DNA from: Mycobacteriales bacterium | Lineage (GTDB): Bacteria > Actinomycetota > Actinomycetes > JAFAQI01 > DASSKL01 | Assembly (NCBI GenBank): GCA_035690485.1 | Contig: DASSKL010000008.1 | Span: 1 to 62,585 of the forward strand | Direction of reading: 5' to 3' | DNA: 62,585 nucleotides | Shown: one piece after another, positions 13,460 to 21,184 of the stretch | Position numbering within the stretch: position 1 is the first letter of the stretch | Layout: every line of letters starts with the position of its first letter | Position numbers and translations under genes: made by a program | The notes under the pieces: model-generated | What the model saw: the letters and a program-made list of their open reading frames with translations, nothing else | The model's database searches: none | Told to the model about the DNA's origin: nothing

Positions 13460-14600
13460 GGGTGACCTCTCTCCTGCCGGCTCCGGCGACCACGGCGGCG
13501 AGCCGCTCCAACGCGGCCAGGCTGTGGCCCTCCACGAAGTCATCGACGCTCGGCAGGGCCGCCGCCATTCCCGCGGCCAACGGCGCGTAGCCGGGGCGCG
13601 CCTTGCGCGGGTTGGCCCAGACGACGCGATGGGCCAACCGGTGCAGCCGGGCCATCTGCTCGCCGAGCAGGGCGGGGTCGCCGCGTTCCCAGCCGTCGGA
13701 GAGCACGACGACGACGGCGCCGCGGGCCATGCCGCGCTGCCCCCACACGTCGAGGAACGCCTTGAGCAGCTCACCGAGCCGGGTGCCGCCGGACCAGTCG
13801 GGGATCGCGTGGGCGGCCGCCGCCATGGCGGCGTCGGCGTCACGGTGGGCCATCTCGCGGGTGACCCGGGTGAGCCGGGTGCCGATGGTGAAGACCTCGG
13901 TCGGCGCCCGCCCGCGGTGGCTCGCGGCGTGCGCGAAGCGCAGCAGCGCGTCGGCGTAGGCACTCATCGAGCCGCTGATGTCGACCAGGAGCACCACGCG
14001 CCGGGGACGTTCCCGCCGGTCCCGGCGGGCGAGGTGCGGGGTCTCGCCGCCCGCGCGCAGCAGCAGCCGCATGGTGCGCGCCTGGTCCACCCGACCGCGG
14101 TGCGCCCGCGCGAGCCGGCGGGTGCGCCGCCGCTCGCCCGGCAGGGAGAAGGCCGCGAGCAGCCGCCGCAACGCGGCCCTGTCGGCGGCGTCGAGGCTCG
14201 CGATGTCACGTTCGCGCAGCACCTCGGTGGCACTGGCGGCAGCCGGCAGCGCGTCACGCTCCGCACCGGCATCACCCCCCGTCGCCGGCTCCGCGTCGGG
14301 TGAGGCGACCAGCCGCAGCTGCGGCCGCTGCGCCGCCTGCTGCGGCGCGCGCGGAGCGGGCCGTTCACCGAAGTACGTCGCGAACACGTCGTCGTAGCGC
14401 GCGATGTCGTCGGCGCTGCCGCACAGCGTGAGCCGGCCGGCCCAGTAGACGTCGCTGCGACGCGCACCGTCGAGCCGGTCGAGCGCACGCACCATCTCGT
14501 GCACCCGGTCCGGCGTGGCCTCGACGCCCGCGGCGCGCAGCGTGCGGGCGAGACCGACGACCGTGTCGGTCACGTCGTAGGCCGCGCCGCTATCACCCAC
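13452..14600 (-). CDS. coxE: CoxE-like von Willebrand factor A protein
   Basis: This 382-residue protein carries a C-terminal vWA domain whose MIDAS motif is VVLLVDISGSMSAYADALL, with VVVVLSDGWERGDPALLGEQM further on. The N-terminal part is helical and acidic. With the adjacent MoxR-type ATPase it forms the CoxD/CoxE chaperone pair that matures the CuSMoO2-type active site in CO dehydrogenases. The GTG at 14600 is chosen because GGAGG lies six bases upstream; a second GTG three bases earlier would leave too little space. The start overlaps the coxD stop by eight bases (GTGGGTGA). Confidence 0.9.
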   Translation of the reverse strand: MGDSGAAYDVTDTVVGLARTLRAAGVEATPDRVHEMVRALDRLDGARRSDVYWAGRLTLCGSADDIARYDDVFATYFGERPAPRAPQQAAQRPQLRLVASPDAEPATGGDAGAERDALPAAASATEVLRERDIASLDAADRAALRRLLAAFSLPGERRRTRRLARAHRGRVDQARTMRLLLRAGGETPHLARRDRRERPRRVVLLVDISGSMSAYADALLRFAHAASHRGRAPTEVFTIGTRLTRVTREMAHRDADAAMAAAAHAIPDWSGGTRLGELLKAFLDVWGQRGMARGAVVVVLSDGWERGDPALLGEQMARLHRLAHRVVWANPRKARPGYAPLAAGMAAALPSVDDFVEGHSLAALERLAAVVAGAGRREVTHA

Positions 14601-15516
14601 CACGCGCCTCCGCGAGCAGCCCACCGAAGTCCAGACCGCGAGCGCGGTCCTGGTCCTCGCGGTACTTGAGCACGCTGCCGAGCGTCATCGTCGCCAGATG
14701 CGGGTCGAGCCGCTGCGCACCGAGAGCGAGCAGGGCCTCGGTCCAGTCGAGCGTCTCGGCGACGCCGGGCGGCTTCAGCAGGTCCTGCCCGCGCAGCTGC
14801 TGCACGGCGTGGGCGACCTCGGTCGCGAGGCGCTGCGTCGCCTCGGGCAACCGGCGTCGCACGATCGCGACCTCGCGCTCGAAGGACGGGTGCTCGACCC
14901 AGTGGTAGAGGCAGCGCCGCTTGAGCGCGTCGTGTACCTCGCGAGTGCGGTTGGAGGTGACGATCGCGACCGGCGGCACGTCGGCGTGCACGGTGCCCAG
15001 CTCCGGGATCGAGACGGTGAAGTCGGACAGAACCTCGAGGAGGAACGCCTCGAACTCGTCGTCGGCCCGGTCGACCTCGTCGACCAGTAGCACGCTCGGA
15101 GAGGTCTCGAGCGCCTGCAGCAGGGGCCGGGCGACCAGGAAGCGGCGGCTGTAGAGCTCGTCCTCGAGCTGCTCCACGTCCTCCTGCTGGGCGCGGCCGG
15201 CCGCCTCGGCCGTGCGCAGGTGCAGCAGCTGGCGCGGGAAGTCCCAGTCGTAGAGCGCCTGCGCAGCGTCGATGCCCTCGTAGCACTGCAACCGGATCAG
15301 CGGCGCGCCGAGGATGTCGGCGAGCGCCTTAGCCAGTGCGGTCTTGCCGACCCCGGCCTCGCCCTCGAGGAACAACGGCCGCGACAGCGCGAGGCCGAGG
15401 TAGGCCGCGGTAGCCAGCCCGTCGTCGGCGAGATAGCCGTGGTCGTCGAGCAGGCGACGCAGGTCGTCGGGCCCCTCGACTCCTTCGGGCAGCAGTCCGC
15501 GTCGCTCGGCTGACAT
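14593..15516 (-). CDS. coxD: CoxD-like MoxR-family AAA+ ATPase
   Basis: This 307-residue AAA+ ATPase has Walker A GEAGVGKTALAKAL near residues 52-65, Walker B SVLLVDEVDRADDEFEAFLLEVL near 140-162, and sensor 1 VAIVTSNRTREVHDALKRRCLYHW. The last stretch is specific to the MoxR/CoxD group. It should act with CoxE to install sulfur and metal in the Mo active site of CoxL. The gene opens a second transcription unit: a strong hairpin separates it from coxM. The ATG at 15516 has CAGACT six bases before it and GGAGG too close to serve normally, so a leaderless mRNA is possible. Confidence 0.92.
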   Translation of the reverse strand: MSAERRGLLPEGVEGPDDLRRLLDDHGYLADDGLATAAYLGLALSRPLFLEGEAGVGKTALAKALADILGAPLIRLQCYEGIDAAQALYDWDFPRQLLHLRTAEAAGRAQQEDVEQLEDELYSRRFLVARPLLQALETSPSVLLVDEVDRADDEFEAFLLEVLSDFTVSIPELGTVHADVPPVAIVTSNRTREVHDALKRRCLYHWVEHPSFEREVAIVRRRLPEATQRLATEVAHAVQQLRGQDLLKPPGVAETLDWTEALLALGAQRLDPHLATMTLGSVLKYREDQDRARGLDFGGLLAEARGG

Positions 15517-15522
15517 GCCTCC

Positions 15523-15528
15523 AGTCTG
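15523..15528 (-). promoter_or_regulatory. Candidate -10 element (CAGACT) for coxD
   Basis: CAGACT on the minus strand lies six bases before the coxD ATG, downstream of the hairpin that ends the structural cox genes. The same CAGACT-N6-ATG layout precedes the phosphatase gene at 24451. Confidence 0.35.
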
Positions 15529-15578
15529 CTCCCCCTGCGATCTTCCGGCGCATCCCCCGGGACGCTTCCCGACGTCTT

Positions 15579-15630
15579 CTGCCGCGTTGTGGGGGTCGAT
15601 AGGGATCCTCGGACCCCCACACGGCGGCAG
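15579..15630 (-). terminator. Strong hairpin between coxM and coxD
   Basis: Arms of 19 bases (15579-15597 and 15612-15630) pair with two mismatches around a 14-base loop; the stem core is GTGGGGGTC/GACCCCCAC. No U-tract follows on the minus strand, which is usual for actinobacterial hairpin terminators. It lies seven bases past the coxM stop, so it would end or attenuate the coxSLM transcript. Confidence 0.75.
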
Positions 15631-15636
15631 CAGTCG

Positions 15637-16488
15637 TCAGCCGGCGGCCTTGAGGACCGCTCGGGCGGTGAGCACCTGGACGAGGTGGTTGCGGTAGTCG
15701 GCCTGCGCGTGCAGGTCGCTGGTGGGTCGCGCGCCGGCGGTGGCACGCGCGGCCGCCTGCCTCACCGCCTCCTGCGACGCGGCGCCGCCCGCCAGCGCCT
15801 GCTCGACCGCGGTCGCGCGGACCGGGGTCGGCCCCATGTTGGTGAGCCCGATGCGGGCCTCGGCGATCGAGCCGTTCGAACGACGGACGGCCGCGGCCAC
15901 CCCGACGATCGCCCAGGCCTGCGCGACCCGGTGGAACTTCTCGTAGTGCACGCCCCAGCCGTCGCCCAGCTTGGGCAGCGACACTTCGACCAGCACATCA
16001 TCGGGCGCGAGCGCCGACTGCAGGTAGTCGGTGAAGAACTCGCTCGCCGGCACGGTGCGTCGCCCCGACGGCCCCTGCACCACGAACTCCGCGTCGAGCG
16101 CCAGCGCGACCGCCGGCAGGTCTCCCGCCGGGTCGGCATGCGCGAGGGAACCGCCGAATGTGCCGCGATGGCGCACCTGCCGGTCGGCGACGGTGGCGGT
16201 GGCCTCGGCGACGAGCGGGGCGTGGCGGCGTACGGCGTCGCTGCCCAGCACCTCGGCGTGCGTGGTCATCGCACCGATGACCAGCCGATCCCCCTCCTCG
16301 CGGATGCCGCGCAGTGCGTCGACGCGGCCGAGGTCGACGACCACCTCGGGGTAGGCCAGCCGCAGGCGCAGCAGCGGCAGCAGGCTCTGGCCGCCGGCCA
16401 GCAGCTTGGCATCGCCGGCGCCCGCCAGCGCGGCGACCGCCTCGTCGATGGACGACGCGCGCACGTAGTCGAACTCCGCGGGGATCAT
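15637..16488 (-). CDS. coxM: FAD-binding subunit of CO-dehydrogenase-type molybdoenzyme (CoxM)
   Basis: This 283-residue medium subunit binds FAD and passes electrons out of the molybdenum hydroxylase. The FAD contacts are the AGGQSLLPLLRLRLA segment near residues 31-45 and RHRGTFGGSLAHADPAGDLPA near 106-126; the usual TIGG is TFGG here. The C-terminal CO_deh_flav_C domain includes NMGPTPVRA. The length is close to the family norm of about 285. The ATG at 16488 overlaps the coxL stop (ATGA). A 19-bp-stem hairpin follows its stop. Confidence 0.94.
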   Translation of the reverse strand: MIPAEFDYVRASSIDEAVAALAGAGDAKLLAGGQSLLPLLRLRLAYPEVVVDLGRVDALRGIREEGDRLVIGAMTTHAEVLGSDAVRRHAPLVAEATATVADRQVRHRGTFGGSLAHADPAGDLPAVALALDAEFVVQGPSGRRTVPASEFFTDYLQSALAPDDVLVEVSLPKLGDGWGVHYEKFHRVAQAWAIVGVAAAVRRSNGSIAEARIGLTNMGPTPVRATAVEQALAGGAASQEAVRQAAARATAGARPTSDLHAQADYRNHLVQVLTARAVLKAAG

Positions 16489-18908
16489 CGGGCACCTGCC
16501 TGCGCCTCGTGGAGGGCGCGCCAGACGCGCTCCGGCGAGCACGGCATGCGAACGTCCTGCACCCCGAGATGGCGTACGGCGTCGAGGACCGCGTTGACCA
16601 CGGCGGGGGTCGAGGCGATCGTGCCGGCCTCCCCCACCCCCTTGACGCCGAGCGGGTTCGACGTCGAGGGGGTGACCGTGCGGTCGGTGACGAACTCCGG
16701 CAGGTCGGACGCGGCGGGCACGAGGTAGTCGACCAGGGTGCCGCTGGTGAGGTTGCCGTCGGCGTCGTAGACGCCCTCCTCGAACAACGCCTGCGCGATG
16801 CCTTGCGCGAGCCCGCCGTGCACCTGCCCTTCGACGATCAGCGGGTTGATGACGTTGCCGACGTCGTCGACCGCGACGTACTTCCGGATCTGCACCCAGC
16901 CGGTCTCGGTGTCGACCTCGACCGCGCACAGGTGCGTGCCGTGCGGGAAGGAGAAGTTCTCCGGATCGAGCACGTAGTCGCTGTTGAGCGACGGCTCCAT
17001 GCCCTCGGGCAGGTTGTGCGCCGCGAACGTCGCGAGCGCGACCTCCTGAATGCTGACCTTCGCGTCGGGTGACCCCTTGACACTGAAGACGCCACGCTGG
17101 AAGTCGATGTCGCCCTCGCTCGCCTCCAGCAGGTGGGCCGCGACCCTACGAGCCTTGTCGACGACCTTCTCGCAGGCCTTGTGCACGGCGATGCCGCCGA
17201 CGACCAGCGACCGCGACCCGTAGGTGTCCATGCCCATCGGCGCCGTCTTGGTGTCGCCGTGGATCACCTCGACGTCCTCGAACGGCACGCCCAGCGCGTC
17301 GGAGGCGATCTGCGACCACGAGGTGACGTGGCCCTGCCCGTGCGGGCTGGTGCCGGTGACGACCTCGACCTTGCCGGTCGGCAGCATCCGGATCGTCGCG
17401 GCCTCCCACCCGCCGGCACCGTAGGACAGCTGCCCGAGGACCCGCGAGGGCGCGAGGCCGCACATCTCGGTGAACGTCGAGATGCCGATGCCGAGCTGCA
17501 CGGGATCGTTGCGGTCTCGCCGCTGCTGCTGCTCGGCGCGCAGCCCCTCGTAGTCGAACAGCTCGGTCGCCCGGTCGGTGGCGGCTTCGTAGTTGCCGCT
17601 GTCGTAGGTCAGCCCGGCGATCGTCGTATAGGGAAACTCCTCGTGCCGGATCCAGTTCTTGCGACGCAGCTCGAGCGGGTCCATGCCGAGCTCGACGGCC
17701 AGCTCGTCCATCACCCGCTCGATGGCGAACGTCGCCTCGGGTCGGCCCGCGCCGCGGTAGGCGTCGGTCGGGGTCTTCGTGGTGAAGACGCCGGTGCAGG
17801 TGAAGCGGTAGGCGTCCATCTTGTAGATGGCGTTGAACATGAAGGCACCGAGCACCGGCACGCCGGGCGTCACCAGCATCAGGTAGGCGCCCATGTCGGC
17901 CTTGAGCTCGACCTTCAGCCCGCGGATCGTGCCGTCCCGGTCGGCGGCGATCGCGATGTCCTGGATCTGGTCACGGCCGTGGTGGGTGGCGAGGAAACCC
18001 TCGCTGCGCGACTCGGTCCACTTCACCGGCCGGCCGAGCCTCCGCGCGAGCAGCAGGCAGACGACCTCCTCGCCGTAGACCTGCAGCTTGGAGCCGAAGC
18101 CGCCGCCGACGTCCGGGGCGACCACCCGCAGCTTGTGCTCCGGCAGTCCGGTGACCATGGCCAGCATCAGCTTGAGCACGTGCGGCACCTGCGTGGAGGA
18201 GTAGACGGTGTACTCGTCGCTGGCGGGCAGCGGCGCGACGACGACCGCCCGCGGCTCCATCGCGCAGGGCACCAGCCGCTGCTGGATGAACCGCCGCTCG
18301 ACGACCACCTCCGCGGCGGCGAACACGTCGTCGACGGGTCCGTTCTCGAACGGCCAGGTGAACGACCTGTTGGTGCCCTTGTCGGCATGGACGAGCACCT
18401 CGTCCTTGAGCGCCTCCTCCATGTCGACGACGGCCGGCAGCGCGTCGTACTCCACGTCGATCGCCTCCAGCGCGTCGGCGGCGCTGTAGCGGTCGCGGGC
18501 CACCACGACGGCAACGGGGTCGCCGACGTGCCGGACCTCGTCGACCGCGATCGGGTGGTGGTCGGGATGCACCATGTCGGGCGTCACCGGCCAGGCGCAC
18601 GGCAGGCCGATCTGGTCGGCCCCCAGATCCGACGCGGTGTAGGCCGCGATGACACCCGGCCGCTGCAGCGCCCCTGACACGTCGAGCTTCGTGATGCGCG
18701 CGTGCGCCATCGGGCTGCGCAGCAGCGCGGCGTGCAGCATGCCGGGGAACTGGATGTTGTCGGTCCAAGTGGTCTGGCCGGTGACGAGCTTGGCGTCCTC
18801 CTTGCGGGCGCGCCGCCGCCCGATCTCCGTCGTCTGGTCGGGCGGCGCGAGCACGTCGGCCTGCCGGATCTGCTCGGCGACGAGACCTGCGTCGAGTTCC
18901 TCGGTCAC
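16485..18908 (-). CDS. coxL: Form II CoxL-type molybdenum hydroxylase large subunit
   Basis: This 807-residue subunit holds the molybdopterin cofactor. GFGSKLQVYGEE and the loop AYRGAGR (residues 383-389) identify it as a xanthine-dehydrogenase-family large subunit. AYRGAGR is the form II signature; true (form I) CO dehydrogenases carry AYRCSFR with the copper-binding cysteine. The C-terminal GVKGVGEAGTIASTPAVVNAV contains the catalytic glutamate near the Mo. The GTG at 18908 overlaps the coxS stop (GTGA). The enzyme should hydroxylate or oxidise a small substrate with water as oxygen donor. CO is possible but unproven for form II, and an aldehyde or N-heterocycle is the alternative. Confidence 0.93.
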   Translation of the reverse strand: MTEELDAGLVAEQIRQADVLAPPDQTTEIGRRRARKEDAKLVTGQTTWTDNIQFPGMLHAALLRSPMAHARITKLDVSGALQRPGVIAAYTASDLGADQIGLPCAWPVTPDMVHPDHHPIAVDEVRHVGDPVAVVVARDRYSAADALEAIDVEYDALPAVVDMEEALKDEVLVHADKGTNRSFTWPFENGPVDDVFAAAEVVVERRFIQQRLVPCAMEPRAVVVAPLPASDEYTVYSSTQVPHVLKLMLAMVTGLPEHKLRVVAPDVGGGFGSKLQVYGEEVVCLLLARRLGRPVKWTESRSEGFLATHHGRDQIQDIAIAADRDGTIRGLKVELKADMGAYLMLVTPGVPVLGAFMFNAIYKMDAYRFTCTGVFTTKTPTDAYRGAGRPEATFAIERVMDELAVELGMDPLELRRKNWIRHEEFPYTTIAGLTYDSGNYEAATDRATELFDYEGLRAEQQQRRDRNDPVQLGIGISTFTEMCGLAPSRVLGQLSYGAGGWEAATIRMLPTGKVEVVTGTSPHGQGHVTSWSQIASDALGVPFEDVEVIHGDTKTAPMGMDTYGSRSLVVGGIAVHKACEKVVDKARRVAAHLLEASEGDIDFQRGVFSVKGSPDAKVSIQEVALATFAAHNLPEGMEPSLNSDYVLDPENFSFPHGTHLCAVEVDTETGWVQIRKYVAVDDVGNVINPLIVEGQVHGGLAQGIAQALFEEGVYDADGNLTSGTLVDYLVPAASDLPEFVTDRTVTPSTSNPLGVKGVGEAGTIASTPAVVNAVLDAVRHLGVQDVRMPCSPERVWRALHEAQAGAR

Positions 18909-19375
18909 TTCGCGGCCTCCATCTGCTCGGCGGCCTGGCGGACCGCGCGGACGATGTTCTGGTAGCCGGTACAGCGGCACAGGTTGCCCTCGAGGCCGTG
19001 CCGTATCTCCTCGTCGCTGGGCGACGGGTTGTCACGCAGCAGGTCGACGGCCGCCATGATCATGCCGGGGGTGCAGTAGCCGCACTGCAGTGCGTGGTTG
19101 TCGTGAAACGCCTGCTGCACCGGGTGCCACTGACCGTCGGCGAGGCCCTGGATCGTCGTCACGTCCGCGCCGTCGGCCTGTACGGCGAGCACCGCGCAGC
19201 TCTTCACCGCCTTGCCGTCGAGATGCACCGTGCACGCACCGCAGTTGGAGGTGTCGCACCCGATGGGCGTGCCGGTGCGACCCAGCCGGTCGCGCAGGTA
19301 GTGCACCAGCAGGAGGCGGGGCTCGACCTCGTCCTGGTAACGCACCCCGTCGACGGTCATCTGCACTGTCGTCAT
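18905..19375 (-). CDS. coxS: [2Fe-2S] small subunit of the molybdenum hydroxylase (CoxS)
   Basis: This 156-residue iron-sulfur subunit has the plant-ferredoxin-type cluster ligands C40, C45, C48 and C60 and the second cluster ligands C98, C101, C133 and C135 in CGYCTPG and NLCRCTGY. It moves electrons from the Mo centre in CoxL to FAD in CoxM. The ATG at 19375 has GAGGAG five bases upstream. It is the first gene of the cox run and is divergent from a Nudix gene across a 129-base gap, which must hold the cox promoter. I could not pick out a convincing -35/-10 pair for it. Confidence 0.95.
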
Positions 19376-19491
19376 GCCATCTCCTCGGCTCTCGGAGTCA
19401 CGGCTGAGCGGACTGCGCCCGTGGCCCGACCCTAGGCCGAAACGCCCCGCGGACGTAAGGGTTCGACCGAAGGCTGCGAGGGCCGCCGCAC

Positions 19492-19504: not shown

Positions 19505-20014
19505 ATGGTCGAGACGGCGCCCGACGACGTCCGCTACTGCATCCGGTGCGGCGGCGCGATGGCCACGCGCGCCGTCCACGGGACGGCCCGTCGCGGCTGC
19601 CCGTCGTGCGGGCACGTCCACTTCACCGACCCGAAGGTCGGCGTCGGCGTGCTGTGCGTGCACGAGGGCCGCGTGCTGCTCGTGCGCCGCGGCATGGATC
19701 CCGAACGGGGTCGGTGGGCCCTTCCTGCCGGCTTCCTCGACGCCGGTGAGGACCCCCGCACGCGGGCGGCGCAGGAGGTGCTGGAAGAGACCGGTCTCAC
19801 CGTGGCCGTCGGCGATGTCGTCGACGTGTTCGGCGGCCACCCCGGTGGCGCGACGGTGTTCGTGCTGTACGCCGGCGCTTACGTCGCCGGCACGCCGGTC
19901 GCCGGGGACGACGCCGACGAGGCGCGCTTCTTCGGCCCCGACGAGCTGCCCGACCTCGCCTTCGAGAGCACGCTGGCCGGCGTACGCCGCTGGCTCGACA
20001 GCCGAGCCGAATAG
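19505..20014 (+). CDS. Nudix hydrolase with N-terminal zinc ribbon
   Basis: This 169-residue protein has a zinc ribbon (YCIRC near residue 11 and CPSC near 32) followed by a Nudix domain. The Nudix box runs from GFLDAGEDP to QEVLEETGL. The usual arginine of the REUxEE core is glutamine here, while the metal-binding glutamates are kept. Zinc-ribbon Nudix proteins include NADH pyrophosphatases and related housecleaning enzymes, but this one is shorter than NudC and its substrate cannot be named. It is transcribed away from coxS, probably from its own leaderless promoter. Confidence 0.88.
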   Translation: MVETAPDDVRYCIRCGGAMATRAVHGTARRGCPSCGHVHFTDPKVGVGVLCVHEGRVLLVRRGMDPERGRWALPAGFLDAGEDPRTRAAQEVLEETGLTVAVGDVVDVFGGHPGGATVFVLYAGAYVAGTPVAGDDADEARFFGPDELPDLAFESTLAGVRRWLDSRAE

Positions 20015-20040
20015 CCAGGCACTTCCGCAGGGCGGCGCAG

Positions 20041-20307
20041 TTGCCCCACTATGAGCGGGTGGAGGGGGACCGCACCAGCACGGTCACCGTGCTGTTCACC
20101 GATCTCGTCGCGTCGACGCAGCTGCGCAGCCGGCTCGGCGACCTGGCCGCCGATGCCCGGCTGTGCCACGCGGCAGCGGGCGGCGAGGTCCTGGTCGCGG
20201 ACGTCGTCAGGGTGCTGGCGGGCTCACGGACACCGCACCGGTTCGAGCCGCGTGGAGCACTCGAACTGGCCGGGCTGCCGGCGCGGCCGAGGGAGAAAAC
20301 ACCTTGA
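20041..20307 (+). pseudogene. Internally deleted class III nucleotidyl cyclase remnant
   Basis: The 88-codon frame joins the start of a class III adenylate/guanylate cyclase domain (TVTVLFTDLVASTQLRSRLGD, with the first metal-binding aspartate) directly to the end of the same domain (ARLCHAAAGGEVLVADVV, then RVLAGSR and ELAGLPARP). Roughly the middle 100 residues are missing, including the second metal-binding aspartate and the base-recognition and transition-state residues. The frame is still open. Catalysis is not possible, so I call it a pseudogene; a binding-only peptide cannot be excluded. The start (TTG at 20041 or GTG at 20059) is uncertain. Confidence 0.75.
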
Positions 20308-20341
20308 CCCGCACCCGCCCGGGACTGAAGCCTGTCGCGTC

Positions 20342-21184
20342 GTGGGAAATTTCGCCCAAGACATAGCGGTGACGAAGGTCGGCGAGGGCCGCTACCGCGC
20401 CGACCTCGATCACGACTGGGACCTCTTCCCGATCCCGCAGGGTGGCATCGTCGCGTCGTTCGGCCTGCGCGCGGCCGCGGCAGAGATCGCCGACCCGGCC
20501 CAGCAGCTGCGCACCTGCACGACCGTCTTCGCCGGGCAGGTGGTGGCCGGCGAGCTCGAGATCGACGTGCAGGTGCTTCGCCACGGACGCTCCGCCTCGC
20601 AGATCGTCTCGACCGTGCGCAACTCCGGTTCGGCGGCCGGCGCGACGACGGTCTCGGTGTTCGGGGGTCCCCGGCGGGGTCCGACGTTCGTCGACGTGTC
20701 TCCTCCCCAGGTGGCCGCGCCGCTCGACTGCCCGTCGTACGCCGACGACCCCCCTCCCGGGGTGGAGCGGCACGAGCCGTCGCCGTTCTGGACCCGAGTG
20801 GAGGGCCGGCCGGCTCTCGGCCACGCCCCCTGGGAGGACTACGAGCCGACCACCTCGGACGTGGCCACGTGGTACCGCTTCCTCGACCCGCCCCGGCTCG
20901 ACGACGGCAGCCTCGACCCGCTCGGCGTGCTCACGCTGGCCGACCGCATGCCCGGCTGCATCGGCGAGCGTCTGGGGCGCGACGACGACCAGTGGTTCGC
21001 GCCGAGTGCCGACTTGACCATCCACCTCTTCGAGCCGCTGCGCACCGAGTGGCTCCTGGCGCACGACCGCGCCCGCTGGGCCGACGACGGCTGGGCATCC
21101 GCCGAAACCACCCTCTGGGACGAGCACGGCACGCTGGTCGGCTACGCGACGCAGATGATGCTGTTCACCTACACGAGGGGCTGA
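20342..21184 (+). CDS. Acyl-CoA thioesterase family protein
   Basis: This 280-residue protein matches actinobacterial double-hotdog thioesterases of the TesB-like 'thioesterase family protein' group. The N-terminal hotdog shows AVTKVGEGRYRADLDHDWDLF, PQGGIVASFGLRAA and the C-terminal one shows LADRMPGCIG and LTIHLFEPLRTEWLLAHDRA with WASAETTLWDEHGTLVGYATQM at the end. It would hydrolyse acyl-CoA esters in the cytoplasm. The start is not certain: GTG 20342 keeps the conserved N-terminal strand, while GTG 20369 is shorter; neither has a clear ribosome site. It follows the cyclase remnant in a different frame. Confidence 0.82.
   Translation: MGNFAQDIAVTKVGEGRYRADLDHDWDLFPIPQGGIVASFGLRAAAAEIADPAQQLRTCTTVFAGQVVAGELEIDVQVLRHGRSASQIVSTVRNSGSAAGATTVSVFGGPRRGPTFVDVSPPQVAAPLDCPSYADDPPPGVERHEPSPFWTRVEGRPALGHAPWEDYEPTTSDVATWYRFLDPPRLDDGSLDPLGVLTLADRMPGCIGERLGRDDDQWFAPSADLTIHLFEPLRTEWLLAHDRARWADDGWASAETTLWDEHGTLVGYATQMMLFTYTRG

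Follow-up and report, generated by a model that had tools for sequence, protein, structure and literature searches.

A probable pseudogene formed by in-frame internal deletion of a class III nucleotide cyclase gene in a Mycobacteriales genome

Broken cyclase genes in Mycobacterium

Broken cyclase genes are on record in Mycobacterium (PMC2447327, PMC4452763). One of them is a cyclase pseudogene of M. tuberculosis and M. bovis, the counterpart of an M. avium cyclase (PMC2447327), and the same pseudogene is also in the title of a 2005 paper cited by PMC4215837. The other precedent involves the mclx genes of the M. tuberculosis complex, which encode proteins of the cyclase-AAA/NB-ARC-LuxR type; at least one mclx gene is truncated in 51.3% of the organisms in that study's panel, and the lesions are described as frame-disrupting indels (PMC4452763). 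No in-frame deletion of the catalytic core comparable to the present one is described in the titles and abstract openings listed by literature searches, which included papers on Mycobacterium cyclase pseudogenes.

Here, we describe a locus of this kind on contig DASSKL010000008.1 of a Mycobacteriales assembly (GCA_035690485.1), within a stretch of 62,585 nt that was analysed as a whole and is referred to as the window. The most probable reading by a wide measure of our confidence is that positions 20041-20307 are a pseudogene, the remnant of a class III nucleotide cyclase gene that has suffered a 261-nt in-frame internal deletion. Like the M. tuberculosis/M. bovis pseudogene, the remnant would then represent a class III cyclase gene that one lineage has lost through a lesion, with intact counterparts elsewhere; the two are compared as broken genes only, the lesion here being an in-frame internal deletion. 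In contrast to the mclx lesions, this one keeps the frame, and no AAA part was found. The features of the locus are as follows.

19505-20014, plus strand: NUDIX hydrolase gene, 5' of the remnant (Pfam NUDIX, 67.3 bits)
20041-20307, plus strand: open frame with the cyclase remnant, 88 codons, TTG start at 20041, stop at 20305-20307
20059-20154, plus strand: retained start of a class III cyclase domain, from a possible GTG start to codon 38; D21 kept
20154/20155, plus strand: deletion junction, 87 model positions (261 nt) missing
20155-20280, plus strand: retained end of the cyclase domain (ARLC ... ELAGLP), model positions 136-179; R40 kept
20281-20368, plus strand: non-coding-like stretch past GLP; last domain strand not in frame
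20369-21184, plus strand: acyl-CoA thioesterase gene, 3' of the remnant, presumed GTG start

An open frame downstream of a NUDIX hydrolase gene

The remnant frame begins 26 nt past the NUDIX gene, and the NUDIX gene, the remnant and the thioesterase gene all lie on the plus strand. An initial annotation of the locus had reported a frame open over 88 codons, and that frame is present from the TTG at 20041 to the stop. On its own, an 88-codon open frame is unremarkable at the 72% G+C of the window: 377 of the 1430 stop-to-stop frames are at least that long, and 223 of 2000 random 354-nt spacers of the same composition carry a closed frame of at least 88 codons. The GTG at 20059, eight residues ahead of the motif VTVLFTD, is a possible alternative start. 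It may be the native start: for two intact frames (L030 and L085), the only possible starts lie 9 and 7 residues ahead of VTVLFTD. No promoter or terminator patterns were found in 19900-20500.

Two halves of a cyclase domain joined in frame

Evidence that the frame derives from a cyclase gene came from a profile. It was built on 18 intact cyclase domains, the set left after removing duplicates from 24 BLAST rows, some of which are overlapping copies of one locus. Against the stop-to-stop frame around the remnant, the profile gave an E-value of 1.1e-24 in two adjacent pieces. The first aligns model positions 14-48 with residues 4-38 and ends at 20154; the second aligns model positions 136-179 with residues 39-82 and starts at 20155. 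Between them, 87 model positions (261 nt) are absent and there are no inserted residues. These data bear out the initial description of the start and end of a class III cyclase domain joined in frame. Given how common long open frames are in this window, the likeness might be put down to a chance resemblance in a G+C-rich spacer. Chance does not account for two ordered, adjacent matches with a joint E-value of 1.1e-24, when the next-best frame of the window reaches only 7.9. The matches refute this explanation, to which we assign almost no probability.

The ends of the deletion, which the initial annotation had proposed to define from intact homologs, were mapped against a larger set of 62 intact domains (E < 1e-12, more than 120 model positions, duplicates removed). 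In these, the stretch between the two halves is 78-102 residues long, and it measures 87 or 88 residues in 18 of the 62. The offset between the halves in the 24 BLAST rows is 87 in 13, 88 in four, 85, 86 or 89 in six, and 77 in one. The homologues of the remnant, both in relatives and on GTDB contigs, are intact class III cyclase domains that match its first and last parts separately. Identity to the closest relative is 63% over the 68 retained positions (residues 13-80). Two frames of about 1,100 residues, L081 (G742:C197) and L019 (G032:C156), are 63% and 60% identical to the remnant over these positions, and differ from it in carrying the 87 missing residues and hundreds more past the domain.

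Matches to general models and to solved structures are weaker for the remnant than for an intact domain. Pfam PF00211 scores 12.6 bits on the remnant, below its cut-off of 21.9, and covers residues 10-31 only; the NCBIfam LipJ model scores 27.8 bits on residues 39-82, with a cut-off of 800. L081 is matched by the C-terminal domain of LipJ (1ybt), by Ma1120 (4wp9), which we take to be the M. avium counterpart of the M. tuberculosis/M. bovis pseudogene, and by Rv1264 (1y10), with E-values of 1.4e-19, 1.4e-18 and 4e-8. The remnant matches 1ybt at 1e-8 and the Ma1120 chains at about 2e-6, and the solved structures have the whole domain. Matches of the remnant below 1ybt are weak: THR1 (8g9j), a repeat protein unrelated to cyclases by name, scores equally well, at 1.2e-6.

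The initial annotation had also suggested looking for microhomology at the deletion ends. With the 18 intact relatives in register, the junction shows shared runs of 1-3 nt only, which is uninformative because none of these relatives is close enough to serve as a proxy for the parent gene. Direct repeats near the deletion site are short and chance-like.

Catalytic positions and predicted fold

The roles of the catalytic lysine, aspartate, asparagine and arginine residues of class III cyclases are taken from PMC4215837. The transition-state arginine, present in all 62 intact domains, is kept in the remnant as R40. The aspartate of the FTD motif, D in 61 of the 61 non-gap rows among the 62, is kept as D21; we take it and the second conserved aspartate to be the metal-binding pair. 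All other catalytic columns fall in the deleted part: the second metal aspartate of the GD motif (D in 62 of 62 intact domains), the substrate-specifying lysine (K in 60 of 62), the D/T position (D or T in 45 of 62) and the transition-state asparagine (N in 38 of 62). Comparison with the 62 domains thus substantiates the claim that the catalytic middle was lost. The remnant does not qualify as an active class III cyclase, lacking the second aspartate, the lysine and D/T pair, the asparagine, a PF00211 score above cut-off and a predicted fold.

AlphaFold2 predicted a fold for an intact relative but none for the short form. The short form, with six aligned sequences, received a mean pLDDT of 47.5 and a pTM of 0.21 (five models, 44.9-47.5), and the best model of the intact L081 domain, with five sequences, a pLDDT of 85.1 and a pTM of 0.81. 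Alignments this shallow are weak ground for either prediction, and a low score does not prove that the product is unfolded. The control itself was variable, with three of its five models above a pLDDT of 80 and two at 58.4 and 54.9. In the L081 model, the missing 87 residues correspond to residues 47-133, which take in the greater part of helix 2, four of the eight strands, helix 3 and half of helix 4.

These results bear on the other possibility raised by the initial annotation, in which the short protein has been kept because it binds a nucleotide or a partner. Under such a model, the first strand, the helix and the final strands would pair with other cyclases or bind a partner, and thereby modulate it. 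The open frame, the family-like halves with their codon signal (weaker in the second), the position in a one-strand row of genes 26 nt after the NUDIX gene, and the seven other PF00211 matches in the genome, which are possible partners, can all be read in favor of this model. If it were true, it would represent a new way of cyclase regulation. However, none of this amounts to positive support. Nucleotide-contacting positions went with the lysine, the second aspartate and the D/T column, and half of the eight strands in the control model fall within the deletion. No fold is predicted for the short form where one is for the intact relative, the coding signal stops short of the end of the domain, and the joined form was unseen in the other genomes searched. 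We therefore regard a kept small protein as quite unlikely. A more specific version, in which the first and last domain segments form a protein of 88 or 82 residues that is kept as a mini-cyclase partner to pair with and restrain other cyclases, would be very unlikely indeed.

The 3' end and the extent of decay

Codon usage places the end of the coding sequence before the end of the domain. Third-position G+C is 0.94 in the first half (counted from GTG 20059), 0.83 in the second half and 0.56 after codon 80; in four neighbor genes it is 0.91-0.93. The codon log-ratio is +0.63 in the first half, +0.21 in the second and -1.42 when read in frame over 20281-20368, and two neighbor genes, which belonged to the training set, score +0.59 and +0.61. 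Both measures drop past 20280, which places the end of the coding sequence at the conserved GLP. In relatives a final domain strand follows (PV..xEV.W), and the remnant lacks it in frame. Hence the initial statement that the start and end of the domain are both retained holds for the start and only in part for the end, since the strand after GLP is not in frame.

A possible trace of the missing strand lies in another frame, where KPVASWEI begins at 20328, about 47 nt beyond its expected place. Scored with the 62-domain set, KPVASWEI ranks 4 among 114,489 8-mers and PVASWEI ranks 5 among 115,741. With the 18-domain set, a 9-column version of the motif gave rank 10 among 113,261 and a 10-column version rank 30 among 112,054, and a 13-column version did not place KPVASWEI. 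The best 9-column match with the 62-domain set lies in yet another frame, at 20321 (rank 21 among 113,261). Because six versions of the motif were tried, a frameshifted domain tail as a second lesion is suggestive only. The bases at 20321-20366 can thus be read in two frames, each with a likeness to the final strand of a cyclase domain.

The retained halves have decayed little. Their summed profile score, 179.6, exceeds those of all 18 intact rows (112.8-173.5), although those rows had been picked for likeness to the remnant. Conservation reaches 80% or more at eight positions across the 62 rows, and the remnant keeps all eight. Departures at positions 70% conserved in the 18 rows are G24 to A, I50 to V and K77 to A; G stands at position 24 in 15 of the 18 rows, and K at position 77 in 17. 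Such slight decay fits either a recent deletion or constraint and does not separate the two. The little-decayed halves, the open frame and the available start count against a pseudogene and also fit a kept short protein.

Distribution of the joined form

Wide conservation of the short form had been named in the initial annotation as one result that would overturn a deletion. It was looked for in three overlapping samples of genomes, each of which included the genome of origin, and the joined form was seen in that genome only: among 60 relatives (6 with any match), among 393 genomes of the class (15 with a match; at most 13 candidates scored per genome) and among 396 genomes of the phylum (7 with a match at 1e-5; at most 13 candidates scored per genome). 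The closest relatives compared were 12 genomes of the same order. Nor did the joined form occur elsewhere among the GTDB contig matches listed. A plasmid search at an E-value of 0.01 returned zero matches, and it says little because even intact domains went unmatched.

Several matches that crossed the junction were rejected. Those in G305 (L037; model positions 22-184) and G673 (L084, L087) are an intact cyclase and an intact domain, and those in G072 (L035) and G349 (L036) are chance matches, with no cyclase by profile (best E-values 0.33 and 0.74). On a Calditrichia contig, L010 has an intact domain of its own, and its alignment crosses the junction only because it extends into that domain. 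The remaining matches in the class and phylum samples begin no earlier than residue 33 or reach no further than residue 42.

Synteny was uninformative about the age of the lesion. No intact ortholog was found at the same place: nine loci in relatives, one identified by the thioesterase (L069) and eight by the NUDIX gene (L070-L074 and L076-L078), had no cyclase profile match at an E-value of 10, several of them lying on short contigs. In no relative did the thioesterase and NUDIX matches share a contig, so the deletion cannot be dated in this way.

In another explanation, an error of assembly, the gene would be intact in the organism and 261 nt would have been skipped by the assembler. The genome is in 102 contigs, and so is probably a draft or metagenome assembly, which lends this possibility some weight. 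However, the join preserves the reading frame and is exact at the protein level, it lies 20 kb inside a contig of 152,762 bases, and loss of the 3' end would require a second, independent error. Moreover, the genome holds no close second copy of the remnant (next best match, E = 0.028) that could have caused a collapse, which speaks against a mis-join between copies. Consequently, we consider an assembly error unlikely.

Origin of the remnant

With the deletion ends set by 62 intact domains, the joined form unseen elsewhere and no close second copy in the genome, the evidence favors the other option of the initial annotation, a frozen in-frame deletion. Under the pseudogene reading, an internal deletion would have removed 87 codons (261 nt) of the catalytic core, with the frame kept by luck, perhaps in one step of the replication-slippage or end-joining type. 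The 3' end past GLP would also have been lost or scrambled, and for this reason the frame would continue through eight codons of non-coding-like sequence before it reaches a stop. Any product would presumably be unfolded and degraded, and nothing would select for the remnant now. The deletion is probably young in evolutionary terms, since the retained halves are still family-like.

The parent may have been a long gene. All eight matches outside the genome of origin in the phylum search sit in frames of 1077-1160 residues, and an AAA_16 domain lies behind the cyclase in three of four scanned relatives, which suggests that the cyclase domain could have been the start of a cyclase-AAA ATPase protein of about 1,100 residues. 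The mclx proteins likewise have the cyclase domain in front of a long protein. They differ in having a LuxR domain; Pfam finds none in the four scanned relatives, of which L081 and L075 are not whole proteins. A stand-alone cyclase domain exists in a 191-residue frame (L007), and a parent of this kind is also possible. If the parent was long, as is probable, everything behind the domain would be gone as well.

Redundancy among cyclases is plausible, since PF00211 matches seven other sites in the genome, and between 7 and 24 sites in each of the 13 genomes of the order (about 2.6-4.1 Mb). In an order with many cyclases, the finding is fairly ordinary. Its value would be as a record of gene loss in a cyclase-rich lineage, and as an example of an in-frame deletion whose leftover frame may be annotated by gene finders as a small unknown protein.

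Other observations at the locus

On the same contig outside the window, a 1331-residue frame (G000:C8:95116-96243; L026, L027) has two tandem cyclase domains. Tandem pairs of cyclase domains also occur in other genomes of the order, for example at G004:C246, G008:C338 and G010:C176.

A near-palindrome, TGGGAAATTTCGCCCA, lies at 20343-20358, ten bases ahead of the GTG at which the thioesterase gene is presumed to start. It is the sole match in the window at three or fewer mismatches and shares bases with the out-of-frame tail motif; it may be an operator. The thioesterase itself has a close match (63%) in one of the 12 relatives from the order (G007), with G004 second at 31%. Genes of the molybdenum hydroxylase kind occupy 14593-19378 on the minus strand. 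Among them, the small iron-sulphur subunit at 18908-19378 (minus strand) has a best NCBIfam match of 249.5 bits, with a cut-off of 290, and a nearby AAA ATPase gene resembles MadB at 263.6 bits, with a cut-off of 475.
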